From positions 1-64,000 of the forward strand of contig NZ_QXFM01000135.1 in the NCBI RefSeq assembly GCF_003584015.1: a stretch of DNA of 64,000 nucleotides, given 5' to 3'. Shown here one piece after another: positions 40,964 to 60,783 of this stretch. Each line of letters begins with the position of its first letter. Within the stretch, counting starts at the first letter, position 1. The notes under the pieces are model-generated. The model ran no database searches and was not told where the DNA came from. It was given only the letters and a program-made list of their open reading frames with translations. The translations under genes were made by a program, and so were the position numbers. This DNA comes from Aurantiacibacter xanthus (lineage in GTDB: Bacteria; Pseudomonadota; Alphaproteobacteria; Sphingomonadales; Sphingomonadaceae).

Positions 40964-41281
40964 TCAGTCGACCGGCGCGACCGTGATGTGCGCAAGGTCG
41001 AGCGTCGCGTCGAGCGGCACCTGACATGCCAGACGCGAACCTGCCGCGCGATGGTCCGAACCGTCGAGCAGGCCGCCCTCGTCACGCGAAACCGGCGACA
41101 ACCGCGGCAGAAAGGCCTCGTCGATGATCACATGGCAGGTGGCGCACGAGCAATGGCCGCCGCACAGCGCGAATTCGTCGGTCAGGCCATAGTCGCGGAT
41201 CGCCTCCATCAAGGTGCCATCGGGCGTGGTCTTGATGGCATGGGTCTTCCCATCGCGATCGGTGAGGGTGAACGTAATCAT
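40964..41281 (-). CDS. 2Fe-2S ferredoxin of the hydroxylase operon
   Basis: A 105-residue adrenodoxin/plant-type ferredoxin. The cluster cysteines are in CGGHCSCATCHVIID and the last in RLACQVPL. The spacing (C-x5-C-x2-C...C) is that of ferredoxins serving oxygenases. It is the last of three co-directional genes behind a membrane di-iron hydroxylase, so it is likely its electron donor; a reductase gene is not present nearby. Confidence 0.88.
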   Translation of the reverse strand: MITFTLTDRDGKTHAIKTTPDGTLMEAIRDYGLTDEFALCGGHCSCATCHVIIDEAFLPRLSPVSRDEGGLLDGSDHRAAGSRLACQVPLDATLDLAHITVAPVD

Positions 41282-41341
41282 TGCACAATGCTCCTGTGGG
41301 CGCGGATCGCGCCGGGTGTAGATGGATGCTGCGGTGCAGGC

Positions 41342-42061
41342 TCAGCCTGCGTGGCCGGGTTCCAGTGTCTCGGCCGGGCTGTCCGCCGTCTCGGCCAGCT
41401 CCAGATCAAGCGCGCGCCTGAGGGTGCGGCGGAACAGGTAGGGCTCAAGGAAGCGGCCGAGAAGATAGAGCGCAACGAACAGACCGGCGAGAACATAGGA
41501 CGGCGTCGTCGGCAGCTTTTCCTTCTTCTGCTCGCCCTCCTGTTCCATCCGCGCCTTCTTCTGCTCCAGCGTTTCGGGAGCCGGTGCGCCCAGCGCCTCG
41601 TCGATCCAGTGATGCGGCGCGGGCTCTTTCTCTTCCTCGTCACCGGCCTTCTCGCCCTTGGCCTCCACCGCTTCGGCCTTGCGGTCTTCCCAATGGTTGA
41701 TGGCGACCGCGATCTGCGCAAAACCCACGAAGAACAGCGGTGCCAGCAGCACCAGCGCCAGCGCATTGCTCTTCACATCGTAGAGGAGCCGGGTCAGTCC
41801 ACCCTGCTGCTCGACGGCGAACACGCCTCGGGAGAAGGTCGCCAGCCGGTCCTGCGCCGCCGGATTGCCCTTCACATAGGTCAGCGTGTTGTCGCCATAG
41901 TCGCAGCGGGTGCTGTCTTCGTCGACCAGCGGTTTGAGCCGGGCGAAGGTCTCTTCGGTGGTCAGCGGCGGGTCGATGGCGATCGCACCGCGGGTGCGCC
42001 AGGCCCAGTCGATGAAAGGCAGGTTCACTGTGGCAATCTCCGGTTCCTGGCGCGCAGGCAC
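41342..42061 (-). CDS. Unknown membrane protein in the hydroxylase-ferredoxin operon
   Basis: About 239 residues (a GTG at 42028 would shorten it by 11). An N-terminal globular part of about 95 residues has the cysteine-containing EDSTRCDYGDNTL. Then come a membrane segment (about 99-121, LALVLLAPLFFVGFAQIAVAI), a charged Glu/Lys-rich stretch (about 125-185), a second membrane segment (YVLAGLFVALYLLGRFL) and a short tail. No family recognised. It lies between the di-iron hydroxylase and the ferredoxin on the same strand, so it may anchor or assemble them. Confidence 0.75.
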   Translation of the reverse strand: MPARQEPEIATVNLPFIDWAWRTRGAIAIDPPLTTEETFARLKPLVDEDSTRCDYGDNTLTYVKGNPAAQDRLATFSRGVFAVEQQGGLTRLLYDVKSNALALVLLAPLFFVGFAQIAVAINHWEDRKAEAVEAKGEKAGDEEEKEPAPHHWIDEALGAPAPETLEQKKARMEQEGEQKKEKLPTTPSYVLAGLFVALYLLGRFLEPYLFRRTLRRALDLELAETADSPAETLEPGHAG

Positions 42062-42163
42062 AGGCCGACCGTCCCGCCCGAACAGGGGGCGAGGTGGTGA
42101 CGGCGTGCTTGCAATGAACTTGGCTGGGGCCCCCGGCCCGCGTGTCAGGCCGGGGGTGGGGTA

Positions 42164-43156
42164 TTATTCAGCGGGTACGGCGCTCGGCTTGTGAAACTTC
42201 GCCCGCAGCCACTGTTTGGTGGTGTTGTATCCCTCGGAGAACGGGAAATGCATGGCTTCCGAGATCGTCATCCGGCGGCCACCCTCCATGCCGAGCTTTT
42301 CCGCCTCGCCATCGACACAGGTGCCGAACAGGCGATCGAAGATGATCCAGGTGGAGCCGTAGTTGCTGCGGCTGGCTTCATAGTCCTGCGAGTGGTGCAC
42401 GCTGTGATGCTCGGTGGTGTTGAACAGGAACCGCCACCAGCCCGGCGTATTGAAGCGCACGTTGATGTGCTGATAGGTGCCGATAGCGAGGCCGAAGGTG
42501 CCCGCCAGCAGCGCCGCACGCGGCAGGAAGTCGAAGAAGCCGCCGACGCCAAGGCCGATCAGGAACAACTCGACCGGGTTGCCGACCGCGCCCTTGTTGA
42601 TGTTGAGTTGGGTGATGTAGTGGTGCGGCGCGTGGGTCAGCCACAGCGGATACCAGTTGTGCATCCCGCGGTGCATCCAGTACTGGCCGAAGTCGAACAG
42701 CAGCGAGATCGCCAGCGCCTGTATCAGCAGCGGCATCCCTGCGAACCAGTCCAGTTTGCTCCAGTCGGCGGCGCCCTGCACCGCCTCGATGATGACATCG
42801 TCGCCCAGATAGGCGCCCATCATGCGCACGACGGTGTAGCCCATGCCGACGTAGAACAGGTCGGTCACCGCCTCTTTCCAGGTCAACATCCAGCTGCGGT
42901 GGCGCGGCGCCATGAATTCGAGCGCAATCAGGAAGGCCCGGAAGCTCAGGCTGATGATGATCGCCGTCTGCGCAGTGGCGATGGAATTTGGCGCGTAATA
43001 CCAGAAGGCCAGCAGCGCGAGCAGACTCGCGGGCTGAAAATAGGTGAAGAAAGCCACTTTCCACGGCCCGCCCTGCACCTTCGGTACATTCTCCCAACCC
43101 ACCGTTACCGGTGCTTCGGTGCCAATGATTCTGTTCCCTACTCGGACCCCGGCCAT
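42164..43156 (-). CDS. Sterol desaturase/fatty acid hydroxylase superfamily protein (copy 1)
   Basis: A 330-residue membrane di-iron enzyme. The eight-histidine metal set is visible: QYWMHRGMHNW, LTHAPHHYITQLN and TTEHHSVHHSQDY. Four or five hydrophobic segments surround it. The ATG at 43156 was preferred to 43162 for ribosome-site spacing. It is a close paralogue of the protein at 57167, sharing GAVGNPVELFLI and LTWKE-TDLFYV. First gene of a unit with an unknown membrane protein and a ferredoxin. An RHH-type operator lies about 100 bases upstream. Substrate unknown; hydroxylation or oxidative N-dealkylation is inferred from context. Confidence 0.88.
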   Translation of the reverse strand: MAGVRVGNRIIGTEAPVTVGWENVPKVQGGPWKVAFFTYFQPASLLALLAFWYYAPNSIATAQTAIIISLSFRAFLIALEFMAPRHRSWMLTWKEAVTDLFYVGMGYTVVRMMGAYLGDDVIIEAVQGAADWSKLDWFAGMPLLIQALAISLLFDFGQYWMHRGMHNWYPLWLTHAPHHYITQLNINKGAVGNPVELFLIGLGVGGFFDFLPRAALLAGTFGLAIGTYQHINVRFNTPGWWRFLFNTTEHHSVHHSQDYEASRSNYGSTWIIFDRLFGTCVDGEAEKLGMEGGRRMTISEAMHFPFSEGYNTTKQWLRAKFHKPSAVPAE

Positions 43157-43254
43157 GCGCATTCTCCATTTGCCGGGCCTCTGCGGCCCGGGCGATTGCA
43201 GAATCTCTCCCGGCGAACGTTGTGCTCTTATGGCTATGAAGAGGAGGCTATAGG

Positions 43255-43280
43255 TATTAACGATCAGGTCAAGCGTAATA
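43255..43280. promoter_or_regulatory. RHH-type operator, copy 2 (hydroxylase 1)
   Basis: TATTAA-N14-GTAATA, five of six palindromic matches, in front of the leftward hydroxylase operon. Same spacing as 50727, 53544 and 57041. Confidence 0.65.
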
Positions 43281-43327
43281 ACGCAGGAAAAGTCAATTTT
43301 TGCGAGTCAACCACGCACGATTGCGGC

Positions 43328-45094
43328 TCAACCGCGCGCGATATAAGCACGCCAACCACCCAGAGAGGTGATTTCCTCCGCTCCATCGGTGGCGCGCGGC
43401 TCGGCGACGAATCCCTTTACGCTGGTGCCGTCGGCGAGAGTGACGGTGCCGATGGCGAGCGGCGCGGGCACCTCGGCGGTGAAGCTGCCGAAGGCGGCGA
43501 CATCCAGCTCATAGACCTCGACCGCGATGGCCGCGCCATCCTCGCTGTAGACCAGCGCAGGCTTGGGCGGGACGCTGTTGGCCATGGCATAGAGGCGGTA
43601 GCTGGGCGCGGTTTCGGTCGCGCAGACGAACTTTGCCTCGCGCGAGGTCAGCTGCCAGTGCAGCGGCATATCCTTGAGGTGCGCGCCGACGACGGCCAGT
43701 TTCACGGTTTCCATCTTTCCCTCCATGTCGAGCGGCGGCGGAGCAGGCAGCTCCGCTCCGGCGAGATAGGTTTTTCCGGCCTCGACCAGCGCCAGGTCGC
43801 TGCCCGCCGGGCCGATCAGCGTGATGCCGAAGCCGGTCCCGTTGGCGCGCTGGCCCGCCGGCAGCGCGAGCGCGGCCATGTCGAGCAGGTTCACGAAATT
43901 GGTGTAGGCCCCGAGGTTCGAGTTGAGCGCGACCGGCGCGGCGGCCAGTTCGCTCACGCGGTAGGTGGTGCCGGTGGTGGGGAAGGCGAGCATCCCCACC
44001 TCTTCCCACATCTGCTCGGCCTGCCGTTGCAGTGCGGCAAGGCGGTAGATCCCGTTGAACAACGCGACCGCCGAAATGTCCTCCCCCGGCGCGACCACGG
44101 TGCGAACCGTGGGGTCGATGGCCTCGGGGTTGCTTTTGAGCAGCGCCTCGATGGCGGCGGTGCGCTCGGCCACCCACGGGCCGGAATAGAGCAAGGCCGC
44201 CGCTTCGGAGAGAAAAGCGGTGTCGATCTCGACGATCTCGCCCTGCCCCGCCAGCTTTTCCAGCGCCTGATCGTAGAGGTATTCTGAGCGCGCATCGCCG
44301 AAGAACTGGCGCTGATTGCGCATGGGCACGCCAATACGCGTCGAGGGCAGCGGACGGTCGACCAGTGGCTTGGAATAGGCATCGACCGGATCGAACCCGG
44401 CAATCACCTCGTCGACCAGCGCGGCATCGTCGAGCTTGTCGGTGAACACCGAGATGCAGTCGAGCGTGCGGCAGGCCGGGACCAGTCCTTGCGTGCTCCA
44501 GCGCCCCTTGCTCGGCTTGAGCCCGATGAGGTGATTGAACGCCGCAGGCACCCGGCCCGAACCGGCGGTATCGGTGCCGAGCGCAAAGGCCACCAGCCCC
44601 GCCGCCACGGCCACCGCCGAGCCCGAACTCGATCCGCCGCTTACGTAAGCGAGGTTCGAGGTGTTGCGCGGAATGCCATAAGGGCTGCGCGTGCCGACCA
44701 GCCCGGTGGCGAACTGATCGAGGTTGGTCTTGCCGACACAGATCGCCCCCGCCGCCAGCAGCTTGCGCACCACCGTGGCCGAATCGTCGGGATCGTAGGC
44801 GAAGTCCGGACAGGCGGCGGTGGTCATGAAGCCGAGGACGTCGATATTGTCCTTCACCGCGAAGGGCACGCCCGCCAGCGGCAGGCTCTGGCCCGCGGCA
44901 ATCCGCGCATCGACCGCCTGCGCCGCCGCCAGCAGCGCGGAAGGTTCGGCACGGCTGATCCATGCTTGCGGCTGGACCTTGTCGTAGAGCGCAAGCCGTT
45001 CGAGCACGTCGGCGATCACGTCCTGCGCCGAGGTCTCCCCGGCATTGACCTTGGCGGCGATAGCCCCCGCGCTCAGGCGTTCGAGCGCGCTCAT
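43328..45094 (-). CDS. atzF: Allophanate hydrolase
   Basis: A 588-residue amidase-signature enzyme splitting allophanate to ammonia and CO2. The catalytic Lys is in GVPFAVKDNIDV, the cis-Ser and nucleophilic Ser in SGGSSSGSAVAVAAGL and GTDTAGSGRVPA. The C-terminal domain (from about 460, MEGKMETVKLAVVGAHLKDMPL) is the AtzF-specific extension that makes free CO2. The start overlaps the carboxylase stop (ATGA). It is the last step of the ATP-dependent urea/guanidine route. Confidence 0.93.
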   Translation of the reverse strand: MSALERLSAGAIAAKVNAGETSAQDVIADVLERLALYDKVQPQAWISRAEPSALLAAAQAVDARIAAGQSLPLAGVPFAVKDNIDVLGFMTTAACPDFAYDPDDSATVVRKLLAAGAICVGKTNLDQFATGLVGTRSPYGIPRNTSNLAYVSGGSSSGSAVAVAAGLVAFALGTDTAGSGRVPAAFNHLIGLKPSKGRWSTQGLVPACRTLDCISVFTDKLDDAALVDEVIAGFDPVDAYSKPLVDRPLPSTRIGVPMRNQRQFFGDARSEYLYDQALEKLAGQGEIVEIDTAFLSEAAALLYSGPWVAERTAAIEALLKSNPEAIDPTVRTVVAPGEDISAVALFNGIYRLAALQRQAEQMWEEVGMLAFPTTGTTYRVSELAAAPVALNSNLGAYTNFVNLLDMAALALPAGQRANGTGFGITLIGPAGSDLALVEAGKTYLAGAELPAPPPLDMEGKMETVKLAVVGAHLKDMPLHWQLTSREAKFVCATETAPSYRLYAMANSVPPKPALVYSEDGAAIAVEVYELDVAAFGSFTAEVPAPLAIGTVTLADGTSVKGFVAEPRATDGAEEITSLGGWRAYIARG

Positions 45095-48000
45095 GCGCCA
45101 GCCGCCAGCGCCAGCAGCGGCGCGCCGGGGGTGATGTTCTGCGCCTCCTCGATATAGAGCGCGGAGATGGTCCCCGCAGCGGGGCTTTCGAGCGGGCATT
45201 CCATCTTCATCGCCTCGATCACGGCGATGGTCTGGCCCGCCTCGACCGCGTCGCCCTGCTTGACCAGCAGCTTCCACACGTTGCCGCCAAACGGAGCCTC
45301 CACCACCTCGGAGCCCTCGGGCACCTCGACCGCCGGCTCGTCCAGAACCGCGCCCTCCGCATCCTCGACCAGTTCGGACACACGGTCGAACTCTCCGTTA
45401 CGCTCCCACTCGGCGCGTTCGGCGTCGAACGCGGCCTGGCGGTGCTGCTGGAAGGCCTCGATGGACTCCGCGTTATCAGCGAGGAACTGGCGGTAGTCGG
45501 CCAGCCGGAACTCCGACTGCTCGACCTCGATGCTGCGACGACCGGCGGGAAAATCGCGCCGCCATTCCTCCAGCTCCTCGGCGCTGACCTCATAGAAGCG
45601 GATCTGGTCGAAGAAGCGCAGCAGCCACGGTTTGCCATCGACGAAGGCGTCGGTCTGGCGATAGGTGTTCCACACCTGAATGGTGCGCCCGAACAGCTGA
45701 TAACCGCCCGGCCCCTCCATCCCGTAGATGCACATATAGGCCCCGCCGATGCCGACCACGTTGGGCGGGGTCCAGGTGCGCGCGGGGTTGTACTTCGTCG
45801 TCACCAGCCGGTGGCGCGGATCGACCGGCGTGGCGACCGGCGCGCCGAGGTAAACGTCGCCCAGACCCATCACCAGATAGCTGGCGTCGAACACCACGGA
45901 GCGCACCGCGTCCTCGTCTTCCAACCCGTTGATGCGGCGGATGAACTCGATGTTGTCGGGGCACCAGGGCGCGTCCTTGCGCACGGCGGCAATGTACTTC
46001 TCGATGGTTTCGAGCGTCGCCGGATCGCGCCAGCTCAGCGGCAGGTGGACGATGCGCGAGGGGATGGTGAAATCGTCGAGTTCGCCCAGCTCCTCTTCCG
46101 CCGCCATCAGCGCCGCGAGCGCGGCGGCCTGATCGAGTTGCTTGCCATCGAAGTGAAGCTGCAACGAGCGGATACCGGGCACGATGTCGATCACGCCCGC
46201 CAATGCCTTGGCCTCCAGCACCGTCATCAGCGCGTGGACGCGGATGCGCAGCTCCAGATCGAGTACGATCGGGCCATATTCGACGAGGATATTGCGGTCG
46301 CCCTGCTGGCGATAGACGGTGCGCGGACGGTGCCCGCTGGCCTCGGTCTGCGCGAGCACCGGCGAGAGGTCGGCCACGGCCTTGCCGCTCTCCGCCACCT
46401 CGGGCTTGCCGAAAGCGAGCGCCTCGCGGTTGGCCGCCTCTGCCGTGGCGATATCGACCGGCAAGAAGCGCAGCCGGTTGCCCGGCGCGAGCTGGCCGAT
46501 CTTCCACCGGTCTGCCGCGATCACCACGAAGGGGCAGACGAACCCGCCCAGCGACGGCCCGTCCGGCCCGAGAATGATCGGCATATCGCCGGTAAAGTCG
46601 ACCGCACCGATGGCATAGGGGTTGTCGTGGATGTTCGAGGGGTGGAGCCCCGCCTCACCGCCGTCCTTGCGCGCCCATTCGGGCTTGGGGCCGACCAGCC
46701 GCACGCCGGTGCGGTTGGAGTTGTAATGCACCTTCCACTCGGCCTCGACCACGCTGGCGATGTCGGCCTCGGTGAAGAAGTCAGGCGCGCCGTGGGGGCC
46801 GTACAGCACGCGGATTTCCCAGCGCTGGCCATAGTCCTCCTGCGCGCCCACACCCTCGGCCAGCGCCGGATCGACCGGAGCGCCGCCAAGGTGCAGCGTA
46901 TCGCCGGCCAGCAGACGCCGCGCGGCATGGCCGCCGAACTGGCCCAGCTCGAAGGTCGCATGGCTATCGAGATAGGGCGCGATATCGAGCCCGCCCGCAA
47001 ACAGGATATAGCCGCGCATCCCGCCGCCGCTCACCCGGCCCAGCGCCAGCGTCTGCCCCTCGGCAACCGAGAAGGGCACGCCGCGCGCCACCGGCTCGCC
47101 ATCGAGCTTTGCACCGAAATCGGCCCCGGTCAGGCATAGCGTGGCGGGCGCGTTGAACTGGAGCGTCGGGCCGGTGAAGGTGACTTCGAGCCCCGCCGTC
47201 CCTTCCGGATTGCCGAGCGCCAGATTGCCCATGCGGAACGAGTTATCGTCCATCGGACCTGACGGCGGCACCCCGATCGACCACAATCCCTCGCGGCCCG
47301 GCCAGTCCTGCACGGTGGTCGCGGTGCCACCGGAAATCACGCGGACCGAGCGCGGGTGATAGCCCACGGTGTCGAGCATTCGGGTGTAGACCTGTCCGCT
47401 TGCGAACCGCTCGTCGCGCACGACATCGCGCAGCCAGCGCAGGTTGGTCTCGATCCCGTCAATCCGGCTTTCGCCCAGCGCGCTCTGCATGGCGGCAATG
47501 GCGGCTTCGCGGCTCTCGGCATGGGTGATCAGCTTGGCGATCATCGGATCGTACCAGGCGCTGACCGTGCTGCCCGCCTCGCACCAGGTATCGGCGCGGA
47601 TATTGGCCGGGAATTGCAGCGCGGTGAGCGTGCCTGTGGTGGGGCGATAGTCGAGCGCCGGATCTTCGGCATAGACGCGCACCTGCACCGCGTGGCCCCT
47701 GGGCTCGGGCGCGGGGGCGTCGAGGTAGGCATAGTCGCCCGTGCCGCCGCGCAGCATCCATTCGACCAGATCGATCCCCATCACCTCTTCGGTGACGCCG
47801 TGTTCGACCTGCAGCCGGGTGTTCATTTCGAGGAAGTAGAACTCCTCACGCTCGGCATCGTAGAGGAACTCCACCGTCCCCGCCGAGCGATAGCTGGCCG
47901 CCTCGGCCAGCCGCACTGCCGCCGCCAGCAGGTTCTCGCGCACCGCCTGCGGCAGAAGCGGCGCGGGCGCTTCCTCGACCACCTTCTGGTTGCGCCGTTG

Positions 48001-48693
48001 CAGCGAGCAGTCGCGCTCGCCCAGCGCCATGACGCGGCCTTCGCCGTCGCCAAAGATCTGCACCTCGATATGGCGCGCCTTCGCGATGTAGCGTTCGAGG
48101 AACACACCCGTATCGCCGAAGCTCGCCCCGCCCTGCCGTGCGACCCCAGCAAAGCCGTCACGCACCTCGGCCTCGCTCTGGCAGATGCGCATGCCGATGC
48201 CGCCGCCGCCAGCGGTCGCCTTGAGGATGACCGGATAGCCGATGGCGTTCGCCGCCGCCGCCGCCTCGTCCTCGTCGGTGAGGAGGTTGGTGCCGGGCGC
48301 GAGCGGGATCGCGTGCTCCTCGGCCAAGGCGCGCGCGCTGTGCTTGAGGCCGAACACGCGGATATGCTCGGGGCGCGGGCCGACGAAGGCGATGCCCGCC
48401 GCCTCGCAGGCCTCGGCGAATTCGGCGTTCTCGGCGAGGAAGCCATAGCCCGGATGGATCATCGTCGCGCCGGTTTCCTTCGCGGCGGCGAGGATCGCGG
48501 GCACGTTGAGATAGCTTTCCGCCGCCGCTGCCGGGCCGATGCACACGGCGGCATCGGCCTGCGCCACGTGAAGCGATTCCGCGTCAGCTTCCGAATAGAC
48601 CGCGACCGAGCGCAGCCCCATCTGGCGGACGGTGCGGATGATGCGGGTGGCGATCGCTCCACGGTTGGCGATCAGAACCGTGCCCTTGCTCAT
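45091..48693 (-). CDS. uca: Biotin-dependent urea (or guanidine) carboxylase
   Basis: A 1200-residue multidomain enzyme. Biotin carboxylase domain about 1-450 (ATP loop KATAGGGGIGMRI, metal site FLEMNTRLQVEHGVTE), then the KipA/AHS2-like domain (from DWPGREGLWSIGVPPSGPMDD), the KipI/AHS1-like domain, and a C-terminal biotinyl domain with VIEAMKMEC. It makes carboxyurea (allophanate) or carboxyguanidine. The two DUF1989 partner genes upstream point to guanidine as a real possibility, because that pair acts as carboxyguanidine deiminase in studied bacteria. The deciding substrate-site residue could not be located by eye. Confidence 0.92.
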   Translation of the reverse strand: MSKGTVLIANRGAIATRIIRTVRQMGLRSVAVYSEADAESLHVAQADAAVCIGPAAAAESYLNVPAILAAAKETGATMIHPGYGFLAENAEFAEACEAAGIAFVGPRPEHIRVFGLKHSARALAEEHAIPLAPGTNLLTDEDEAAAAANAIGYPVILKATAGGGGIGMRICQSEAEVRDGFAGVARQGGASFGDTGVFLERYIAKARHIEVQIFGDGEGRVMALGERDCSLQRRNQKVVEEAPAPLLPQAVRENLLAAAVRLAEAASYRSAGTVEFLYDAEREEFYFLEMNTRLQVEHGVTEEVMGIDLVEWMLRGGTGDYAYLDAPAPEPRGHAVQVRVYAEDPALDYRPTTGTLTALQFPANIRADTWCEAGSTVSAWYDPMIAKLITHAESREAAIAAMQSALGESRIDGIETNLRWLRDVVRDERFASGQVYTRMLDTVGYHPRSVRVISGGTATTVQDWPGREGLWSIGVPPSGPMDDNSFRMGNLALGNPEGTAGLEVTFTGPTLQFNAPATLCLTGADFGAKLDGEPVARGVPFSVAEGQTLALGRVSGGGMRGYILFAGGLDIAPYLDSHATFELGQFGGHAARRLLAGDTLHLGGAPVDPALAEGVGAQEDYGQRWEIRVLYGPHGAPDFFTEADIASVVEAEWKVHYNSNRTGVRLVGPKPEWARKDGGEAGLHPSNIHDNPYAIGAVDFTGDMPIILGPDGPSLGGFVCPFVVIAADRWKIGQLAPGNRLRFLPVDIATAEAANREALAFGKPEVAESGKAVADLSPVLAQTEASGHRPRTVYRQQGDRNILVEYGPIVLDLELRIRVHALMTVLEAKALAGVIDIVPGIRSLQLHFDGKQLDQAAALAALMAAEEELGELDDFTIPSRIVHLPLSWRDPATLETIEKYIAAVRKDAPWCPDNIEFIRRINGLEDEDAVRSVVFDASYLVMGLGDVYLGAPVATPVDPRHRLVTTKYNPARTWTPPNVVGIGGAYMCIYGMEGPGGYQLFGRTIQVWNTYRQTDAFVDGKPWLLRFFDQIRFYEVSAEELEEWRRDFPAGRRSIEVEQSEFRLADYRQFLADNAESIEAFQQHRQAAFDAERAEWERNGEFDRVSELVEDAEGAVLDEPAVEVPEGSEVVEAPFGGNVWKLLVKQGDAVEAGQTIAVIEAMKMECPLESPAAGTISALYIEEAQNITPGAPLLALAAGA

Positions 48694-49325
48694 GCTGCGA
48701 CGATCATCCGCACCGGGGTGGGGTTGAAGGCGTTGCACGGGTTGTTGATCTGCGGGCAATTCGAAACGACCACGATAATATCCATCTCGGCGCGCAGATC
48801 GACCGTGAGGCCGGGCGCGGAAATTCCGTCGACAATGCCCAGCGAGCCATCGGCTTCGACCGGCACGTTCATGAAGAAGTTGATGTTGGGCACCATGTCG
48901 CGCTTGCCCCGCCCCTCGGTGAGGTTGGCTTCGAGGAAGTTGTCGACACAGGCATGCTGCGCCTTGGTGTGGTGGCCATAGCGCAGCGTGTTCGATTCGC
49001 ACGAACAGGCGCCGCCGATGGTATCGTGATAGTCGACCGAGGTGCCGGTGATCGTCGCCATGGGCCGCCCCTCGTTCGAGCGCAGCACGCTGCCCTGCCG
49101 CAGAAACAGGTTGCCCTGCGCCGAGACGGTGTCCTGCGCGCTGTAGCGCTCGACATCGTCGGCGGCGGAATAGAGCAGGAAGTCGACCGCCTGATTGCCC
49201 TCGACATCGACGATGCGCAGGGTCTGGCCCTTGGCCACGTGGTGCAGCCATGGCGCGCGAGCGGGCACCAGTTCGTCGTGGATTATGGTGCCGGAAAGGC
49301 CTTCAGTTCCCGGGTCAGCAGTCAT
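48690..49325 (-). CDS. DUF1989 protein UAAP2 (carboxyguanidine deiminase subunit candidate)
   Basis: A 211-residue DUF1989 protein, the urea amidolyase-associated protein 2 type. Cysteines in GGACSCESNTLRYGHH, QHACVDNFL, SNCPQINNPCN and the motif MVPNINFFMNVPVEADG are characteristic. In guanidine-degrading bacteria the UAAP1/UAAP2 pair (also named CgdA/CgdB) removes ammonia from carboxyguanidine. It overlaps the carboxylase start (ATGA) and lies 20 bases after UAAP1. Confidence 0.87.
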   Translation of the reverse strand: MTADPGTEGLSGTIIHDELVPARAPWLHHVAKGQTLRIVDVEGNQAVDFLLYSAADDVERYSAQDTVSAQGNLFLRQGSVLRSNEGRPMATITGTSVDYHDTIGGACSCESNTLRYGHHTKAQHACVDNFLEANLTEGRGKRDMVPNINFFMNVPVEADGSLGIVDGISAPGLTVDLRAEMDIIVVVSNCPQINNPCNAFNPTPVRMIVAA

Positions 49326-53480: not shown

Positions 53481-53543
53481 CGGCACAACTCCTTTTTCGC
53501 AATCGCAGCATTGCCGCAAACGCAAGGCATGTCCAGCGCAATT

Positions 53544-53569
53544 TATTACTATTGTCATCTTGCGTAATA
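53544..53569. promoter_or_regulatory. RHH-type operator, copy 1 (importer / MBL divergence)
   Basis: TATTAC-N14-GTAATA, the only perfect copy, midway between the divergent importer and MBL-fold genes. It probably controls both. Confidence 0.7.
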
Positions 53570-53672: not shown

Positions 53673-54776
53673 ATGGAGTTTTCGATGCCGCAGTCCCAGC
53701 CGACCTACAGCCCCGCGCTGTCAGGGAATCCGCAATCGGCGACGTCGCGGAGCTATCCGAACGGCAACCCCGATGCGGGTTACAACCCGCCCGGCGTGCG
53801 CAACACGGATTCGGCGCTGCCGCTGCATCCGGCAGAGCCGGTCATGCACAATTACGATGCCGAGGGCCCCGCTGCCGGCCAGCTGGGGTTCCGCTGGACC
53901 TATGGCAGCAACGTCGCGGCCAAGAACCGCGATCCGCGCGTGCAGGTGGTGCAATACAACGAGGATACCTTCGTGATGCGCCAGAACGTCTGCATCGACT
54001 GGCAGGCCCCTTTCACCCACCTTCTGTTCGGCAACAAGGGCGCACTGCTCATCGACACCGGCGCTACCGCCAATGGCGCTTACTACCCCTTGCGCGAAAC
54101 CGTCGATGCGGTGATCGAACGCTGGGCCTATGCGCGCGGGCGCAAGAAAGTGCCGCTGACCATCGCCTTCACCAGTGGCGAGGACGTGGCGCAAAATCAG
54201 GGCCTCGTGCAGTTCATGGACCGGCCCGACACCACCGTGGTGCCCAAGCCGCTGGGCGTGATGAAGCAGCACTATGGCCTGTCATCGAGCTGGCCCGATG
54301 GCACCGGCACCATCGACCTTGGCGACCGCGTAATCACCGTCATCCCCACGCCCGGCACGCACAAGGACGGGGTCAGCTTCTACGATCCCTATTGCGACAT
54401 CCTGTTCACCGGCGACCTGCTGTTTCCCGGCTGCATCAACATCAGCAACGAGGGTGATTTCATCACCTCGCTGGAACGCCTGCAGGGCTTTGCGGCGGCC
54501 AATCCGGTGCAATGGATCCTCGGCGGGCACATCGACATGATGTTCGTCCCCGGCAAGCACTACCCCCGCTTTGCCGCCTACAAACCGTATGAGCGGGTGC
54601 TCGAAATGACGCCTGCCCTGATCGACGATGCGCTCGCCAGCGCCCGCGCGGTGCAGGGGCGCGAGGTCAAGTTCATCCGGCCCGATTTCGTCCTGTTCAA
54701 CGGGGTCAGCCCCGATGCACGCGCGGGCGAATGGCCAGAGGGCGTGCCCGACATCAATCCGCCCCGGCCCTACTAA
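53673..54776 (+). CDS. MBL-fold protein with degenerate metal motif
   Basis: A 367-residue metallo-beta-lactamase-fold protein. The long N-terminal stretch (about 70 residues) is Pro/Asn-rich with no signal peptide. Where HxHxDH is expected the sequence is FTSGEDVAQNQG, so the first metal site is lost. Later residues survive: His in IPTPGTHKDG, Asp in ILFTGDLLFPG and His in LGGHIDMMF. It is paired with the intact, exported paralogue downstream (24-base gap). It may be a non-catalytic partner or use a single metal. The GTG at 53595 gives a longer but less likely start. Confidence 0.82.
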   Translation: MEFSMPQSQPTYSPALSGNPQSATSRSYPNGNPDAGYNPPGVRNTDSALPLHPAEPVMHNYDAEGPAAGQLGFRWTYGSNVAAKNRDPRVQVVQYNEDTFVMRQNVCIDWQAPFTHLLFGNKGALLIDTGATANGAYYPLRETVDAVIERWAYARGRKKVPLTIAFTSGEDVAQNQGLVQFMDRPDTTVVPKPLGVMKQHYGLSSSWPDGTGTIDLGDRVITVIPTPGTHKDGVSFYDPYCDILFTGDLLFPGCINISNEGDFITSLERLQGFAAANPVQWILGGHIDMMFVPGKHYPRFAAYKPYERVLEMTPALIDDALASARAVQGREVKFIRPDFVLFNGVSPDARAGEWPEGVPDINPPRPY

Positions 54777-54800
54777 GATTTTCGCAGGAGACCCAAGCAG

Positions 54801-55805
54801 ATGGATCGTCGCACCTTCCTGTCATACAATGCCGCAGCGGTCGCCGTGCCGACGGCGCTGACCACCTTCAGCAGCGCGGCAAAGGCCGCCACCAGCCCCG
54901 AGCCGATCGACTTCACCAGCAACCTGCCCGCTCCCGGCAGCTTTCCCGACAAGTGGATATGCGGTTCGGAATCCTTGATGGACAACACCGATCCGCCGGT
55001 TCAGGTCCATTGGTATAATGCCCATTCCGCGATCCTGCGGCAGAACAAGGCCTACAGCTACGAAGCGCCGTTCGCCCCGCTCTACTTCGGCAACGACCGG
55101 GTGCTGCTGCTGGACGAGGGCTTTACCACCTGGCGCAACGACTGGGATCTGCGCGGCGTGGTGGATGAATGCATCAACGACTGGTGCGCACGCAACGGGC
55201 GCGATCCGGCGGATATGGAGCTGCTGGTCGCCTTCAGCCACCTGCACGCCGACCACTATGCCGCCGTCAACCAGTTCGCCGACCGGCCCAAGACCCGCTA
55301 TATGGGCCTGACCCACGAAGAGATGGTCGGCTTCTGGGGCATGACCAACTTTCCCGAAGAGCAGGTCACGCTCGATCTCGGCGGGCGTGAAATCCTGATC
55401 TGGGGCTCGCCCGGCCACGTAATCTCCGAATTCGCCTATTACGACAGCTACACCCAGATCCTCTACACCGGCGACATGTTCTACCGCGGCCGCTGCTACA
55501 TCAGCTTCTGGGAGCCGTGGTTTGCAAGCATGGGTCGGCTGATCGATTTCGTCGACACCCATCCGGTGACCCACGTGATGGGCTGCCACGTGGAAATCAG
55601 CAAGGACGGTCAGGACTACCCCTATGGCATGACCTGGCAACCCGACGAAGCGCCCGTGCAAATGACCGTCGAGCAACTGCGCGAAACCTACGAATTCGCC
55701 AAGACCATCACCGAACCTGGCATCTATTTCACCGGCACCGTGTTCCTGTGCAACCAGACGCGCGGCACCACCACCATCGACGTCAACCCCTACCGCTACA
55801 GCTGA
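54801..55805 (+). CDS. Exported MBL-fold hydrolase
   Basis: A 334-residue MBL-fold protein with an apparent Tat-like signal (MDRRTFLSYNAAAVAVPTAL). The metal motif is intact: FSHLHADHYAA, then the His in GSPGHVIS, the Asp in YTGDMFY and the His in VMGCHVEIS. It shares its N-terminal strand pattern and the YEAPFAPLYFGN segment with its degenerate neighbour. Role in the cluster unknown; hydrolysis of an oxidised intermediate in the periplasm is possible. Confidence 0.84.
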   Translation: MDRRTFLSYNAAAVAVPTALTTFSSAAKAATSPEPIDFTSNLPAPGSFPDKWICGSESLMDNTDPPVQVHWYNAHSAILRQNKAYSYEAPFAPLYFGNDRVLLLDEGFTTWRNDWDLRGVVDECINDWCARNGRDPADMELLVAFSHLHADHYAAVNQFADRPKTRYMGLTHEEMVGFWGMTNFPEEQVTLDLGGREILIWGSPGHVISEFAYYDSYTQILYTGDMFYRGRCYISFWEPWFASMGRLIDFVDTHPVTHVMGCHVEISKDGQDYPYGMTWQPDEAPVQMTVEQLRETYEFAKTITEPGIYFTGTVFLCNQTRGTTTIDVNPYRYS

Positions 55806-55836
55806 GCCCGGCGCGGTTCGTTTGAGGAGCTTACCC

Positions 55837-56775
55837 ATGAAGACATCCATCGCCCTTGCCGCCTTGTTGCTCGGTGCCTGTAGCGCTGCCGAGGCCGATC
55901 CCGCCGATGGCGACGCGGCGAACGGCGGATATGCCGAACAGGTGATCGAAGTGCCCGACTTTGCCGATTTCCTGCTGGTGGACGGAGCCACGGTCTGGGC
56001 CACCAACAAGGGCCGGATCGAGCAGTGGTCGACCATGGGCAAGGTGACCTCGGTCGCGGTGCCGCGCCCCTGCGGCACGATGGCCATGGCGGCGGAGTCG
56101 CTGTGGGTCGGCAACTGCGACGGCGGCGAGCTTTACCGGGTGAACCCGCGCACCGGAGAGGTGCTCGAGAAAATCCCCGCCGGCATCGGGCCGAGCGGCG
56201 AGCAGAACGTGGTGGCGGGCGCAGGCTCGGTCTGGGCGCCAAATCAGGCCAAGGGCACGATCTCGCGCATCGACCCGGAAACCAACACCATCATCGCCAG
56301 CATCCCGGTCGCCGCCGGCACCACCTATCTCGCCTATGGCTTCGACGCACTGTGGGCAGCGAGCGGCGAAGGCGGCACCATGCAGCGGATCGACCCGCAG
56401 ACCAACACCGTCACCGACACCATCGAGCTGGGCAAGACTCCCGGCTTCCTCGTCGCGGGCGAAGGCATGGTGTGGATTCAGGAACAGGGCGACGGCACGC
56501 TGGCACGGATCGACCCGGAAACGCGCACGGTGGTCGGCCGCACCAAGGTCGGCGATAACCTCAAGTGGGGCGACATCGACACCGGCGACGGCAAGGTGTT
56601 CCTGCGCACCACCGACGACCAGACCTTCGTGGTGATCGACGCCGCCAGTGCCGAGGTGATCGCGCGTGTCGGCCGCGCCGAAGGCAGCGGCGCGCTGCGC
56701 TATACGCCGGAAGGCATCTGGACCAGCGCCCACGACGTCCATTCGCTGACATGGTGGACTGCGGCCAGCAACTGA
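55837..56775 (+). CDS. Beta-propeller lipoprotein (YncE-like)
   Basis: A 312-residue lipoprotein: signal ALAALLLGACSA with lipobox cysteine. Repeats of the type SRIDPETNTIIASIPV, QRIDPQTNTVTDTIEL and ARIDPETRTVVGRTKV indicate a six- or seven-bladed propeller. Proteins of this sort bind small molecules or scaffold others. It follows the MBL pair by 31 bases on the same strand with GAGGAG upstream. No catalytic motif seen. Confidence 0.82.
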   Translation: MKTSIALAALLLGACSAAEADPADGDAANGGYAEQVIEVPDFADFLLVDGATVWATNKGRIEQWSTMGKVTSVAVPRPCGTMAMAAESLWVGNCDGGELYRVNPRTGEVLEKIPAGIGPSGEQNVVAGAGSVWAPNQAKGTISRIDPETNTIIASIPVAAGTTYLAYGFDALWAASGEGGTMQRIDPQTNTVTDTIELGKTPGFLVAGEGMVWIQEQGDGTLARIDPETRTVVGRTKVGDNLKWGDIDTGDGKVFLRTTDDQTFVVIDAASAEVIARVGRAEGSGALRYTPEGIWTSAHDVHSLTWWTAASN

Positions 56776-57040
56776 ACACCGCCCTTCGCAATCCCCAGCA
56801 AAGCCAAGGCGATGAGCGGCACTCCTGCACGGGAGCATTGCTCGTCGCCGCTTGGCATTTGGGGAGGCGCGCACCGATTCGCGCACGGCCCGGCCCGACC
56901 TGTGGCATCTCGATTACACTTCAGACACATTCCGGAAAAAATCCGGCAATAACGCTCGAATTTTCTGCGCCAAGAGTCTCGAAATAACAAGGATTTTGGC
57001 CGGATGCGCAGGAATCCCAACCCATGTTGCATAGCAGCAT
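56776..57040. other. Intergenic gap upstream of hydroxylase 2
   Basis: About 265 bases with no gene on either strand. It ends in the RHH-type operator at 57041, after which a further 100 bases of leader precede the hydroxylase start. Confidence 0.4.
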
Positions 57041-57066
57041 TAATACTCTTGACCGATTAGGTAATA
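57041..57066. promoter_or_regulatory. RHH-type operator, copy 4 (hydroxylase 2)
   Basis: TAATAC-N14-GTAATA, five of six palindromic matches, about 100 bases before the second hydroxylase gene. Spacing identical to the other three. Confidence 0.6.
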
Positions 57067-57166
57067 TCTATAGCCTGTATCGCATCGCAGCATAGAACTG
57101 CGGACCTGTTCGGAGCGGAGGATCTGCAACTGGAGGCCGACTGGCAGCCATTTTTGGAGATTGTCT

Positions 57167-58153
57167 ATGCAGCGAGCAACGAACGGCCAGACCGGCGGCG
57201 AAGGCACTCTGACAGCGGCCGCGTTCGACGCCGATGCTCCGGCATCTTCGGACACATTCACCGAAAAGTTCAAGCTCGCGCTGATCAACGCCGTGCCGCT
57301 GGCCACGCTGCTGGCCGTGGTCGCCTTCTGGCTGCTGGCGCCGCGCTCCATCACTGCAAACGAGTGGAGCCTCGTGGTCGTGACCACCGCGATCACCTTC
57401 TTCATCCTCGGCCTCGAATTCGTGCTCGAACGCCATTCGGGCTGGAGGCTGACCTGGAAGGAATTCCTCACCGACCTGTTCTACGTGATCCTGATGGCGA
57501 CCGCGATCGGCTGGCTGGTCGAGACCTTCGCCGATGGCCCGCTTGCCTCAGTGAAGGACAGGCTCGGCCTGTCGACCCCGTGGATACTCACGCTGCCGGT
57601 GGTGGTTCAGGCGTTCATGGTCGTGTTCCTGATCGAGTTCGGCCAGTACTGGATGCACCGCTGGATGCACAACTGGCTGCCGCTGTGGCTGACCCACGCG
57701 CCGCATCACCATGTGACCCAGCTCAACGCGATGAAGGGCGCAGTCGGCAACCCCATCGAGCTGTTCCTGATCAGCCTCTCGGTGGTGGCGCTGTTCGATT
57801 TCGACATCGTCGCGATCTTCTGCGGCCTGTCGATGATGACGGTGATCTCGACCTTCGCCCATGCCAACGTCCGCTCGAACCCGCCGCTGGTCTATGGCTT
57901 CCTGTTCACCACCATCCGTAACCACAGCCTGCACCACACCGCCCTCAGCTACGAGGACACGCGCTACAACTACGGCAATTCGGTGATCGTGTTCGACCGC
58001 ATCTTCGGCACCTACCGCGACGGCGAATCCGCCGTGGTCGGGCAGGACGATCGCAAGCGGCTGAGCATCTACGAGCAATTCATGTTCCCGTTCCAGCCGC
58101 TGCTCGACAAGGCCAGCGCTGCGCGGGCGAAAACCGCCGACGCAGACGGCTGA
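57167..58153 (+). CDS. Sterol desaturase/fatty acid hydroxylase superfamily protein (copy 2)
   Basis: A 328-residue membrane di-iron protein. Histidine sets QYWMHRWMHNW, LTHAPHHHVTQLN and RNHSLHHTAL are complete. It parallels copy 1 closely through the core (LTWKE-TDLFYV, GAVGNPIELFLI, NVR..PP..GFLFTT). The start at 57167 has TTTTGGAGA upstream. The N-terminal 30 residues are variable. Substrate unknown. TonB receptor gene follows about 200 bases later. Confidence 0.88.
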   Translation: MQRATNGQTGGEGTLTAAAFDADAPASSDTFTEKFKLALINAVPLATLLAVVAFWLLAPRSITANEWSLVVVTTAITFFILGLEFVLERHSGWRLTWKEFLTDLFYVILMATAIGWLVETFADGPLASVKDRLGLSTPWILTLPVVVQAFMVVFLIEFGQYWMHRWMHNWLPLWLTHAPHHHVTQLNAMKGAVGNPIELFLISLSVVALFDFDIVAIFCGLSMMTVISTFAHANVRSNPPLVYGFLFTTIRNHSLHHTALSYEDTRYNYGNSVIVFDRIFGTYRDGESAVVGQDDRKRLSIYEQFMFPFQPLLDKASAARAKTADADG

Positions 58154-58177
58154 TCCAGCAAGGCAAGGGAGCAAAAG

Positions 58178-58203
58178 CCCACCAGAATACCCCACCAGAA
58201 TAC
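58178..58203. repeat. Tandem 13-base direct repeat
   Basis: CCCACCAGAATAC twice in direct succession, in the gap between the hydroxylase and the TonB receptor genes. No function evident. Confidence 0.5.
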
Positions 58204-58359
58204 AAGGCCGCGAACCAACACCGGCAAGCAACGGCCTCAAAGGTTCCGGCAAGGGAAGAACCAACGGCCAGCGCCACTGCTCTTCAATTCTGAGATTTTC
58301 AGGTTTCGGCGCGCTCCGGAGCCCGGACGAACACAACCAAAAGCATGAGGGATTGCGCA

Positions 58360-60783
58360 ATGAAAAAATGCTCCAGAATCAAGCTGAAACTGATGGTGGC
58401 AACCGCCATCACCGGCACGGCGGCCACTGCCACTCCGGCGCTCGCGCAGGACGTGACCACCACAACCACCAACGATGCGATCGTCGTCACCGCCACCCGC
58501 CGCGCGACCACGCTGATGGATACGCCGATCAACATCAGCGCCCTCTCCGGCGACGAGCTTGCACGGCAGAAGGTCGAGGACATCCGCGACATTGCCGATT
58601 TCACCCCCGGCATGACCATTTCCGACACCGGCCCCGGCTCGACCGGCACCATCGTGCTGCGCGGCCTGCGCGCTTCCGACGTAGGCGCGGGCGGCGCTAT
58701 CTATGATAACGCGATGGGCATCTACCTCGGCGAAGTGCCGATGTATTATGACTTCAAGTTCATCGACATTGCGCGCGTCGAAACGCTGCTCGGTCCGCAG
58801 GGCACGCTGTATGGCCTCGGCACGCTGGCCGGTGCAATCCGCTACATCCCCAATCGCCCCAACCTCGACAAGTTCGAAGGCGAGGTGCTCGGCGGCCTTT
58901 CGATGAAGGCGCACGGCGACGATGTCGGCTTCAAGGCCGAAGGCGTTATCAACATTCCGATCATGCGCGATCACATCGCCTTCCGTTCGGCGACGGGCTA
59001 CACCTACGATCCCGGCTTTATCGACTATCCGCTGCTGGTGCAGGAACCGGGCATTTCGATCCCGCAGCCGGGCGGGCCTGGCAATCCGACCTACACCGAC
59101 GCCGAATACGACGCGAACCTCTATCGCCGTGACAACCTCAACTACGAGCGCACCGTCACCACCCGCAACCAGCTGCTGGTGGCCCCGAGCGACGATATCA
59201 GCTTCAACTTCACCTATGCCTTCCAGCAGACCAAAACCGAAGGGTCGCAAAGCAACAGCAATGGTGTGATGGGCACCGGCATTTATGAAAATGCCAGCCG
59301 CTACGCCGAGCCGGTCGACCGCTACGCTCATCTGGCAAGCGTCGAAGTCAACGCCAACATTGCGGACGTGGTCGATCTGGTGGCAACCGCCGCCTATACC
59401 GAGAGCCTGTTCACCGATAGCGTCGATGTGACCGACCTGCTGCTTGACCTCGACTACGGCTACGAAAACTATCCGGGCTTCTCAGCCTACACCGAGTCCG
59501 AACGCCGGCGTAAGCAGCACAATGTCGAGGTCCGTTTCGTCTCCACGCACGGCGGCCCCGTCAACTGGGTGCTCGGCGGGTTCTTCAACCGCGACGAATA
59601 TCAGAGCGACTATGCCGAAATGACGCCCAACCACCCGTGGTGCGACCAGGACGGCAATCCCTCGTGTTTCGAATATGTGAGCTACATCAGTTCCGAGGTG
59701 AAGGAAAAGGCGATCTTCGGTGAAGCCACCCTCCAGATCATTCCCCAGTGGCAAATCACCGGCGGCGCGCGATACTTCGACTACACCTCGCAAATCGCCG
59801 GCGCCGCAACCTTGCCGCTGCTCGGCCAGCCGCTCAGCCCTTATGACCGCAACGCGAGCGGCGGCACCGGTGGCGAGGATGGCTGGGTCTGGAAACTCAA
59901 CACCTCGTTCGACATTGCCGACGAGCTGATGATCTACGGCACCTTCTCGAAGGGCTATCGTATTGGCGGACCCAACCGCGTCGCGCCCTGCCCCGAAGGC
60001 ACACCGACCGATCCCACCCAGTACAACGGGCCGCAGCTTATCTGCGCACTGCCGAGCGAAATCCAGTATGGCCCCGATGAAACCAAGAACCTTGAAATCG
60101 GCGCCCGCCTGGAGCTGTTCGATCGGCGTCTGAACCTGAACCTGGCCTATTTCCACATCGACTGGGACGGTATTCAGGTTGCATCGGCCACGACCTATGG
60201 TGTGACCGGGATCACGATCAACGGCGGCAAGGCATTGTCGGAAGGTTTTGAAGCAACCTTCCAGGCCCGCCCGATCCCCGAACTGAGCATTCAGGGCAGC
60301 TTCTCCTACGTCGATGCCCATCTGACCGAAGACGTGCCCGACATCATCTCGGTCAACAGCCCGGCTGGCAGCTATCCAAGCGCTCCGATCAAGATCGATG
60401 CGCTGGCGGGCGACCGTCTGCCCGGTTCGGCCAAGCACTCCGGCTCGCTGGGGGCGATCTACACCCTGCCCGTCGGCGACAACGATCTGGTGCTGAACTG
60501 GACCGCCACCTATCGCGGCAACGTGGTCTCGCGGCTGGGCTGGGATCGTGCTTCCGGCACGGTCATCCCGAGCTACACCGTGCACCGCGCCTCGATCTCT
60601 TACGAGATGCAGAACTACACCATCTCGCTCTACGCCAACAACATCTTCGACAAGTACGCGGTGGTCTCGACCGCCAACGATCTGTCGCAGACCGGCTACA
60701 ACGACGGCATCCTGCTGCGCTACTATCGTCAGGCCGTGCTCAATCCGCGCACGGTCGGGATCGAGGCGCGCATGAAGTTCTGA
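58360..60783 (+). CDS. TonB-dependent outer membrane receptor of the hydroxylase cluster
   Basis: An 807-residue receptor. Signal peptide (LMVATAITGTAATATPALAQ), TonB-box-like DAIVVTATRR, plug with GSTGTIVLRGLRASDV and RVETLLGPQGTLYGLGTLAGAIRYI, then a barrel ending in Phe (VGIEARMKF). An ATG at 58345 adds five residues. It belongs to the family of receptors with a FIDIARVE-type plug often found in sphingomonad catabolic clusters. It probably imports the substrate of the adjoining oxygenase/MBL genes; that is inference. Confidence 0.9.
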   Translation: MKKCSRIKLKLMVATAITGTAATATPALAQDVTTTTTNDAIVVTATRRATTLMDTPINISALSGDELARQKVEDIRDIADFTPGMTISDTGPGSTGTIVLRGLRASDVGAGGAIYDNAMGIYLGEVPMYYDFKFIDIARVETLLGPQGTLYGLGTLAGAIRYIPNRPNLDKFEGEVLGGLSMKAHGDDVGFKAEGVINIPIMRDHIAFRSATGYTYDPGFIDYPLLVQEPGISIPQPGGPGNPTYTDAEYDANLYRRDNLNYERTVTTRNQLLVAPSDDISFNFTYAFQQTKTEGSQSNSNGVMGTGIYENASRYAEPVDRYAHLASVEVNANIADVVDLVATAAYTESLFTDSVDVTDLLLDLDYGYENYPGFSAYTESERRRKQHNVEVRFVSTHGGPVNWVLGGFFNRDEYQSDYAEMTPNHPWCDQDGNPSCFEYVSYISSEVKEKAIFGEATLQIIPQWQITGGARYFDYTSQIAGAATLPLLGQPLSPYDRNASGGTGGEDGWVWKLNTSFDIADELMIYGTFSKGYRIGGPNRVAPCPEGTPTDPTQYNGPQLICALPSEIQYGPDETKNLEIGARLELFDRRLNLNLAYFHIDWDGIQVASATTYGVTGITINGGKALSEGFEATFQARPIPELSIQGSFSYVDAHLTEDVPDIISVNSPAGSYPSAPIKIDALAGDRLPGSAKHSGSLGAIYTLPVGDNDLVLNWTATYRGNVVSRLGWDRASGTVIPSYTVHRASISYEMQNYTISLYANNIFDKYAVVSTANDLSQTGYNDGILLRYYRQAVLNPRTVGIEARMKF

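Follow-up and report, generated by a model that had tools for sequence, protein, structure and literature searches.

A guanidine carboxylase gene cluster in Aurantiacibacter xanthus with membrane hydroxylases, a TonB-dependent receptor, and a NikR-like regulator: a candidate guanidine-acquisition regulon

We analysed a stretch of 64,000 nucleotides of Aurantiacibacter xanthus (contig NZ_QXFM01000135.1, positions 1 to 64,000, forward strand), hereafter the window. Within it, region 40964-62586 is annotated as a compact block. Its centre, on the minus strand, holds the genes for an ABC binding protein, permease, and ATPase, a NikR-like regulator, the subunits UAAP1 and UAAP2, a carboxylase, and an allophanate hydrolase. 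The left arm, also on the minus strand, holds the hydroxylase FAH1, the protein Unk240, and a ferredoxin, and the right arm, on the plus strand, holds the proteins MBL1 and MBL2 and a propeller lipoprotein, followed by the second hydroxylase FAH2 and a TonB receptor. Every gene named in a preliminary description of 40964-60783 was found to be present; the span held for those genes but not as the end of the block, since a TPR-sulfotransferase on the minus strand at the far edge, past 60783, also belongs to it. These genes are conserved jointly and share palindromes, also when they lie far apart in the genome. We propose that the block may be a guanidine-acquisition regulon in which a guanidine-bearing compound is imported through the TonB receptor and oxidised beside the guanidino nitrogen by the FAH enzymes, after which guanidine is carboxylated and hydrolysed to ammonia; we consider this proposal evenly poised between being right and being wrong. 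The features of the block are as follows.

40964..41281, minus strand: Fdx, an adrenodoxin-type 2Fe-2S ferredoxin (Pfam Fer2, E=7.6e-9; CX5CX2C...C motif)
41342..42028, minus strand: Unk240, a small soluble domain with two long helices, probably membrane-spanning
42164..43162, minus strand: FAH1, a membrane di-iron hydroxylase, FA_hydroxylase (Pfam PF04116, E=4e-23; histidine boxes conserved)
43255..43281, minus strand: operator-like palindrome before FAH1, TTATTACGCTTGACCTGATCGTTAATA
43328..45094, minus strand: allophanate hydrolase AtzF (TIGR02713, 730 bits, cut-off 511)
45091..48693, minus strand: UCA, predicted biotin-dependent guanidine carboxylase (TIGR02712, 1767.7 bits, cut-off 1303.85; Asp700)
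48690..49325, minus strand: UAAP2, predicted carboxyguanidine deiminase subunit, DUF1989 (TIGR03424, 329 bits, cut-off 284.7)
49346..50182, minus strand: UAAP1, predicted carboxyguanidine deiminase subunit, DUF1989 (TIGR03425, 311.9 bits, cut-off 205.95)
50179..50709, minus strand: NikR-like ribbon-helix-helix regulator, nickel site incomplete (NikR_C, E=6.2e-21)
50726..50752, plus strand: operator-like palindrome just before the regulator gene, within the end of the ATPase gene
50722..51543, minus strand: ABC transporter ATPase (Pfam ABC_tran)
51537..52352, minus strand: ABC transporter permease (BPD_transp_1)
52395..53480, minus strand: periplasmic binding lipoprotein of a urea/guanidine ABC transporter (TIGR03427, 524 bits, cut-off 334)
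53543..53569, plus strand: operator-like palindrome between the divergent ABC/uca and MBL units (perfect match)
53673..54776, plus strand: MBL1, an MBL-fold protein without HxHxDH (Lactamase_B, E=3.5e-11)
54801..55805, plus strand: MBL2, an MBL-fold hydrolase with HLHADH intact and a Tat-like leader by eye (Lactamase_B, E=1.2e-7)
55837..56775, plus strand: beta-propeller lipoprotein (beta_rpt_yvtn repeats, E=1.7e-14; lipobox-like LLLGAC by eye)
57040..57066, plus strand: operator-like palindrome before FAH2
57161..58153, plus strand: FAH2, the second membrane di-iron hydroxylase (PF04116, E=4.2e-23)
58345..60783, plus strand: TonB-dependent receptor (Plug and beta-barrel Pfam domains)
61006..62586, minus strand: TPR-sulfotransferase, conserved at the cluster edge (Sulfotransfer_3, E=1.8e-51)

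The four enzyme models and the binding-protein model of the central operon passed their curated NCBIfam cut-offs, and the full biotin-dependent carboxylase operon of the preliminary description is indeed complete. An Asp at position 1330 of the Kluyveromyces lactis enzyme has been used as the criterion for guanidine carboxylases (PMC11410670), and the same Asp/Asn rule is given in PMC12186494. The K. lactis urea enzyme (5i8i) has Asn there, and Asp700 of the window's carboxylase aligns to this Asn1330; Asp stands at this discriminating position in all 10 full-length orthologues compared, the window's included. Asp947 (GLGD) is also conserved and is a candidate counterpart of K. lactis position 1584, a second position at which Asp is the criterion, although by residue count it lies one off. 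Two adjacent DUF1989 subunits both score above the UAAP1 and UAAP2 cut-offs; their deiminase function is taken from the CgdAB literature. Because Asp700 stands at the discriminating position, it marks a probable guanidine carboxylase, and free guanidine rather than urea is the expected entry compound. Asp700 and the two carboxyguanidine deiminase subunits together point to a pathway end in which guanidine is converted via carboxyguanidine and allophanate to ammonia and CO2, with the carboxylase, deiminase, and AtzF steps assigned by family membership and the Asp700 signature. An N-substituted urea or guanidine had been suggested as the substrate; the guanidine half of that suggestion stands, and the urea half falls with Asp700. 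The urea half would have an N-substituted urea oxidised and urea carboxylated. The carboxylase model is named urea carboxylase and oxidative N-dealkylation would suit ureas too, but with Asp700 in place and both DUF1989 subunits present, which urea would not need, we regard this version as very improbable.

To follow the block in other genomes, we used a near-relative set of 99 genomes, consisting of the window's own genome and those of 98 relatives (FAH-type threshold, E<=1e-20). FAH-type genes occurred in 11 of the 99 genomes, the same 11 that carry the carboxylase (G and L numbers hereafter are our handles for genomes and loci). Among the carboxylase matches listed, sorted by E-value, the gene is full length in 10 of these; in G027 it is cut by a contig end, and most other listed genomes matched the carboxylase query only via other biotin carboxylases. 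FAH1 and Unk240 were present in 10/10 relative regions, those of G027 on another contig. The receptor, the propeller lipoprotein, and the sulfotransferase were likewise present in all 10 relatives, some interrupted in the fragmented G027, and so was FAH2. A close MBL2 was found in eight of the 10, being divergent in G040 and absent in G021, and gene order was rearranged in G059, G052, and G040. The block is thus conserved as a unit elsewhere, a point that the preliminary description had proposed to check, recurring in ten related genomes with one to four palindromic sites each. Of the 11 other genes, 10 had pairwise identities across 10 genomes that correlated with those of the carboxylase (r 0.62-0.99); for MBL2 the correlation was weak (r 0.41, permutation p 0.116). 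Because species phylogeny was uncontrolled, we do not offer these correlations as proof of co-inheritance.

We next considered an order-level set of 296 genomes (carboxylase, E<=1e-180; FAH1-type, E<1e-150; receptor, E<=1e-180), in which counts are uncorrected for kinship. The carboxylase occurred in 27 genomes and an FAH1-type gene in 28, with both in 26 and neither in 267. The receptor was found in 22 genomes, comprising 21 of the 27 carboxylase-positive genomes and one of the 269 negative ones (G241). Close MBL2 orthologues were restricted to 11 genomes, all carboxylase-positive (0/269 negative), and only divergent MBL-fold relatives were found in eight further carboxylase-positive and five negative genomes, the negatives all of another family. 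Hydroxylase, MBL, or TonB genes standing without the carboxylase, the pattern named at the outset as speaking against a shared pathway, were therefore mostly not seen: among the 269 negatives there were two genomes with FAH1, three with an FAH2-like gene, and one with the receptor.

A scan of GTDB with the FAH1 alignment extended this comparison; we kept the best 80 of 225 relatives, all Sphingomonadales by genus names. Unk240 lay beside FAH1 at 80/80 of these loci. The carboxylase lay within 10 kb of FAH1 at 48 of the 80 (49 before L152, at 48% identity, was taken as another biotin carboxylase). In 30 of the remaining 32 it was found elsewhere in the genome, twice as a partial gene; five of these copies lay at 11-17 kb, and the other 25 were either on a different contig or separated from FAH1 by 79 kb or more. 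The two FAH1 genomes lacking a carboxylase are metagenome-assembled genomes, and one of them has an allophanate hydrolase beside FAH1.

Four palindromes of the pattern TTATTAC-N14-GTAATA lie in the window, each near perfect and each before one unit, which upholds the earlier statement that shared operators link most of the units. In the 4.38-Mb genome, only five places matched with at most one mismatch, four of them inside the cluster. The stricter pattern TTAWTACN{12,16}GTWATA matched twice, both times in the cluster, and its reversed form not at all. Across the 11 cluster regions there were 38 sites (at most one mismatch; one to four in each region) in 434,237 bases, compared with zero in each of five Markov-1 simulations. 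The fifth near-perfect palindrome of the genome (G000:C133:29370-29396; L216, position 7371) stands a few bases before a gene for a lipoprotein-like protein of 206 amino acids, possibly an additional regulon member or a chance occurrence.

The palindromes also accompany genes that have been separated, which makes for a more independent check. We scored 79 of the 80 FAH1 loci, L139 being omitted because of too little upstream DNA: 48 near loci and 31 others, the latter made up of five at 11-17 kb (L089, L105, L126, L149, and L155), two without a carboxylase, and 24 far loci, at which the carboxylase sits on a different contig or 79 kb or more from FAH1. One far locus, L148, is an 8.5-kb contig beside an allophanate hydrolase and may in truth be near. 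At 17 of the 24 far loci a site with at most three mismatches was present, at -56 to -72 of FAH1; such a site occurred in 4 of 395 random control windows taken from the 79 scored loci. A site was also found before FAH1 at three of the five loci at 11-17 kb, at one of the two without carboxylase (L109 and L125), and, with at most two mismatches, at 14 of the 48 near loci. From the 30 genomes with the carboxylase more than 10 kb from FAH1 we fetched 20 carboxylase operons, 19 of them far. All 20 had a NikR-like gene and a site (at most one mismatch), and beyond the binding-protein gene all 20 had MBL1, FAH2, the receptor, or a second NikR-like gene. Since the site is kept both at far FAH1 loci and at far operons, the sites are shared also where location is not. 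These results bear on whether the genes are chance neighbours carried with a mobile block. A patchy distribution (11 of 99 genomes) would suit such an origin, but co-occurrence outlasts rearrangement and separation and distant copies keep the palindrome, so that this explanation is already disfavoured and, in our judgment, barely credible.

The regulator holds ribbon-helix-helix and NikR_C domains and scores just over the NikR model PRK04460 (105.6 bits; cut-off, 105). We take the square-planar nickel site of NikR to be His-His-His-Cys. The ligand positions that read H-H-H-C in P. horikoshii NikR read x-H-F-S in 11/11 cluster regulators and in nine further distinct homologues aligned, one of which (G669) comes from outside the order. 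In this alignment, L212 and L217 represent a single gene, and no match was obtained for L104. Three more distant homologues read x-H-H-T; of these, L219 lies in a guanidine carboxylase cluster and L218 beside a related ABC transporter. The delta-proteobacterial NikR site has been described as GTGTTAC-N13/14-GTAACAC (PMC545781), a layout that the cluster palindrome shares. This layout and the narrow pass of PRK04460 would suit a nickel-responsive NikR regulon in which urease has been swapped for a nickel-free enzyme and nickel enters through the TonB receptor. However, with x-H-F-S in place of H-H-H-C throughout, there is little to recommend a nickel regulon, and we set it aside because three of the four ligands are replaced; the automatic label of a nickel-responsive NikR is probably wrong. 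The regulator presumably binds the palindromes, and its own gene would then be autoregulated. In window positions 38000-64000 and in 18 of the 20 operon regions fetched, the only Rfam match at gathering level was a tRNA, and no guanidine riboswitch was found. Because of this, a simple guess is that guanidine is sensed by a protein, namely this regulator.

FAH1 and FAH2 are paralogues with 40% identity, and the histidine boxes of FAH1 (HX3H, HX2HH, and HX2HH) are complete. Enzymes that carry the fatty acid hydroxylase motif work within the membrane. Fdx was found in 8 of the 11 cluster regions and is the likely electron donor to the hydroxylases. Unk240 had no Pfam or NCBIfam match; its AlphaFold2 model (mean pLDDT, 78) gave weak fold matches, the best, to a COXG-type protein at E=5.5e-3, being a lead only. 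Five loci (L090, L092, L102, L132, and L146) add a LysR-like gene and a 2-oxoglutarate (2OG)-type oxygenase, whose nearest solved relatives are 9ovh and 6jyv. The former is mentioned in work on ancestral reconstructions of the ethylene-forming enzyme (PMC12329707), and the latter we take to be the PaIPNS of that work. There, PaIPNS is reported to form little ethylene, and no product of arginine hydroxylation was detected. A second oxygenase in five clusters fits an oxidative step without proving one, and since its nearest relatives make little or no guanidine, we count it as weak support.

A TonB receptor usually pays off for a scarce or large compound. The receptor of the block scores best with a siderophore-receptor model, below its cut-off (107.9 bits; cut-off, 223.5), and PDB sequence searches with MBL2 and the receptor returned nothing at the thresholds used. 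The preliminary description had listed two MBL-fold proteins; both have the fold, and the HxHxDH metal motif is present in MBL2 but not in MBL1, where a TSGEDVAQ-type segment replaces it in all nine orthologues aligned. Models of a "quinoprotein relay" or associated with pyrroloquinoline quinone, which the MBL and propeller proteins touched, were all below cut-off and were not used. The TPR-sulfotransferase stands in all 10 relative regions read. This last gene, together with the siderophore-receptor score, would fit a cluster for the synthesis or recycling of a lipid or metallophore that bears guanidine and is perhaps sulfated, with the carboxylase operon clearing by-product guanidine. Yet the 18 annotated genes, which are only part of the window, include no amidinotransferase, nonribosomal peptide synthetase, polyketide synthase, or exporter, and the ABC transporter comes with a periplasmic binding protein, a feature of importers. 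Synthesis or recycling of such a product is therefore unlikely in our estimate.

The guanidine-acquisition proposal can be set out in steps. The NikR-derived regulator, perhaps sensing guanidine or a related compound, would act at the palindromes before the units. The TonB receptor would carry a guanidine-bearing compound across the outer membrane, periplasmic MBL2 and MBL1 and the propeller lipoprotein might trim it, and the ABC transporter would import a smaller guanidino compound. FAH1 and FAH2, with electrons from ferredoxin and with Unk240 as a helper, would then hydroxylate the carbon next to the guanidino nitrogen, and the resulting hemiaminal would break up to guanidine and an aldehyde or ketone. 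Finally, the guanidine carboxylase, the CgdAB-type UAAP1/UAAP2 deiminase, and AtzF would yield ammonia and CO2. We infer the regulation, the oxygenase reaction, the substrate, and the MBL roles; by analogy, FAH1 and FAH2 acting with ferredoxin on a hydrophobic or large guanidino compound would be the most economical reading. More specifically, the block may hold a new guanidine-freeing route, namely membrane di-iron N-dealkylation of a TonB-imported compound under a nickel-free NikR descendant that senses guanidine, a task left to riboswitches in other bacteria; this is a narrower claim that we put forward tentatively. The earlier suggestion of uptake of a larger compound followed by oxidative attack is partly supported: the genes do behave as one unit, the compound is narrowed to a guanidine, and the oxygenase reaction and the imported compound stay at the level of inference.

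Several observations weigh against this proposal. In the window's FAH2 the third histidine box reads RNHSLHH, one His short, whereas five other FAH2 proteins aligned read RHHSLHH, and the FAH2 copy of G020 has lost its middle. A search of PDB sequences with the FAH profile gave FAH1 no match at the threshold used, and the low-confidence AlphaFold2 model of FAH1 (mean pLDDT, 65) resembled no PDB structure at E<=0.001. The 18 annotated genes include neither an aldehyde dehydrogenase nor a lyase, and the 2OG oxygenase is nearest to enzymes that are reported to make little or no guanidine (PMC12329707). At two mismatches or fewer, the genome holds 15 palindromic sites and 16 of the reversed control, no excess; we rejected this loose pattern, and because of the control we gave weight genome-wide to near-perfect sites only (at most one mismatch). 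No site stands directly before FAH1 at 7 of the 24 far loci or at 34 of the 48 near ones. G143, of another family and with two carboxylase copies, is the only genome with a carboxylase and no FAH1, and the receptor is missing in six carboxylase-positive genomes (G143 and, of genus g49, G229, G275, G301, G336, and G358). Conversely, G243 and G309 have FAH1 and no carboxylase, their neighbourhoods holding FAH1, Unk240, and the propeller lipoprotein and no guanidine pathway genes, and G219, G326, and G335 have only an FAH2-like gene, with neither carboxylase nor FAH1. Because FAH1- and FAH2-like genes occur without the carboxylase, the hydroxylase has some life of its own; in carboxylase-free genomes it is either a remnant or able to function independently of guanidine carboxylase. 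Given the missing His in the window and the lost middle in G020, FAH2 may be decaying in this lineage.

Some of these points would suit an envelope role. In response to guanidine or to nitrogen limitation, FAH1 and FAH2 would then modify a membrane lipid by hydroxylation, much as OlsE acts on ornithine lipid; the MBL proteins and the receptor would serve likewise, and only the ABC-carboxylase operon would handle guanidine. OlsE (NF052566) is the only NCBIfam match of both hydroxylases, far below its cut-off (73.8 bits for FAH1 and 68.2 for FAH2; cut-off, 475), and an FAH1- or FAH2-like gene lies beside the propeller lipoprotein without a carboxylase in G243, G309, G219, and G326. However, co-occurrence of FAH1 with the carboxylase is near strict even when they are far apart, the receptor goes with the carboxylase, and supply of a substrate fits these facts better. 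We consider the envelope role a minority possibility, though the strongest of the alternatives discussed here.

What is known in this block is the guanidine carboxylase pathway (Gca, CgdAB, AtzF, and an ABC importer), with which the cluster has all enzymes, the transporter, and the Asp signature in common. The cluster differs in having a NikR-like gene and DNA palindromes, with no guanidine riboswitch found, and in adding two hydroxylases, a TonB receptor, MBL proteins, a propeller lipoprotein, and a sulfotransferase. The link from this pathway to membrane di-iron hydroxylases, to a TonB receptor, and to a NikR-like regulator whose nickel site is incomplete is new. A close parallel is MgdH of Vreelandella boliviensis, a methylguanidine hydroxylase that is encoded in a guanidine carboxylase operon and oxidises beside the guanidino nitrogen, the lyase MgdL speeding the break-up (PMC12508155). 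Likened by description rather than by sequence, the cluster would likewise pair guanidine carboxylase with an oxygenase that releases guanidine from one of its N-alkyl derivatives. MgdH, however, is a 2OG/Fe(II) dioxygenase from a riboswitch-controlled operon (PMC12508155), whereas the cluster has membrane di-iron hydroxylases and an outer-membrane receptor, which suggests a larger or more hydrophobic substrate than that of MgdH. Alkylglycerol monooxygenase, which has the same fatty acid hydroxylase motif as the FAH proteins, hydroxylates the carbon beside an ether oxygen, and its product yields an aldehyde (PMC3617469). Hydroxylation next to a heteroatom followed by fragmentation would be the model for the cluster, by analogy only, with a guanidino nitrogen and ferredoxin proposed in place of the ether oxygen and tetrahydrobiopterin. 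NikR shares with the cluster regulator its ribbon-helix-helix and NikR_C architecture and its operator layout, but three of the four nickel ligands are replaced in the cluster regulator and its neighbours are guanidine-use genes. OlsE belongs to the same superfamily as FAH1 and FAH2 and differs in gene context as well as in its low score. In the literature covered, from which subscription papers mostly fell outside, we found nothing linking fatty-acid-hydroxylase-type enzymes, TonB receptors, or NikR to guanidine carboxylase, and the available text of the review PMC12186494 mentions none of the three. Few guanidine-releasing enzymes are known (PMC12508155), and the natural origin of free guanidine is an open question. 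The conserved coupling of guanidine use to membrane oxygenases and a receptor points to a larger guanidine-bearing nutrient in sphingomonads, which becomes testable by growth, deletion, and assay work, and the cluster's NikR-like protein becomes a candidate for regulating guanidine use, no riboswitch having been found there.

Some minor observations concern regulatory genes. In 6 of the 20 fetched operons (L229, L230, L231, L232, L233, and L239), two NikR-like genes flank the ABC genes, and in G143 the two carboxylase operons (L189 and L190) have NikR-like genes of 57-59% identity. By eye, the surroundings of FAH1 at the 80 loci include histidine kinase-like genes (at 13 loci), response regulator-like genes (at 11), and LysR-like genes (at 15), for example at L085 and L149, and other control of FAH1 is possible at such loci.

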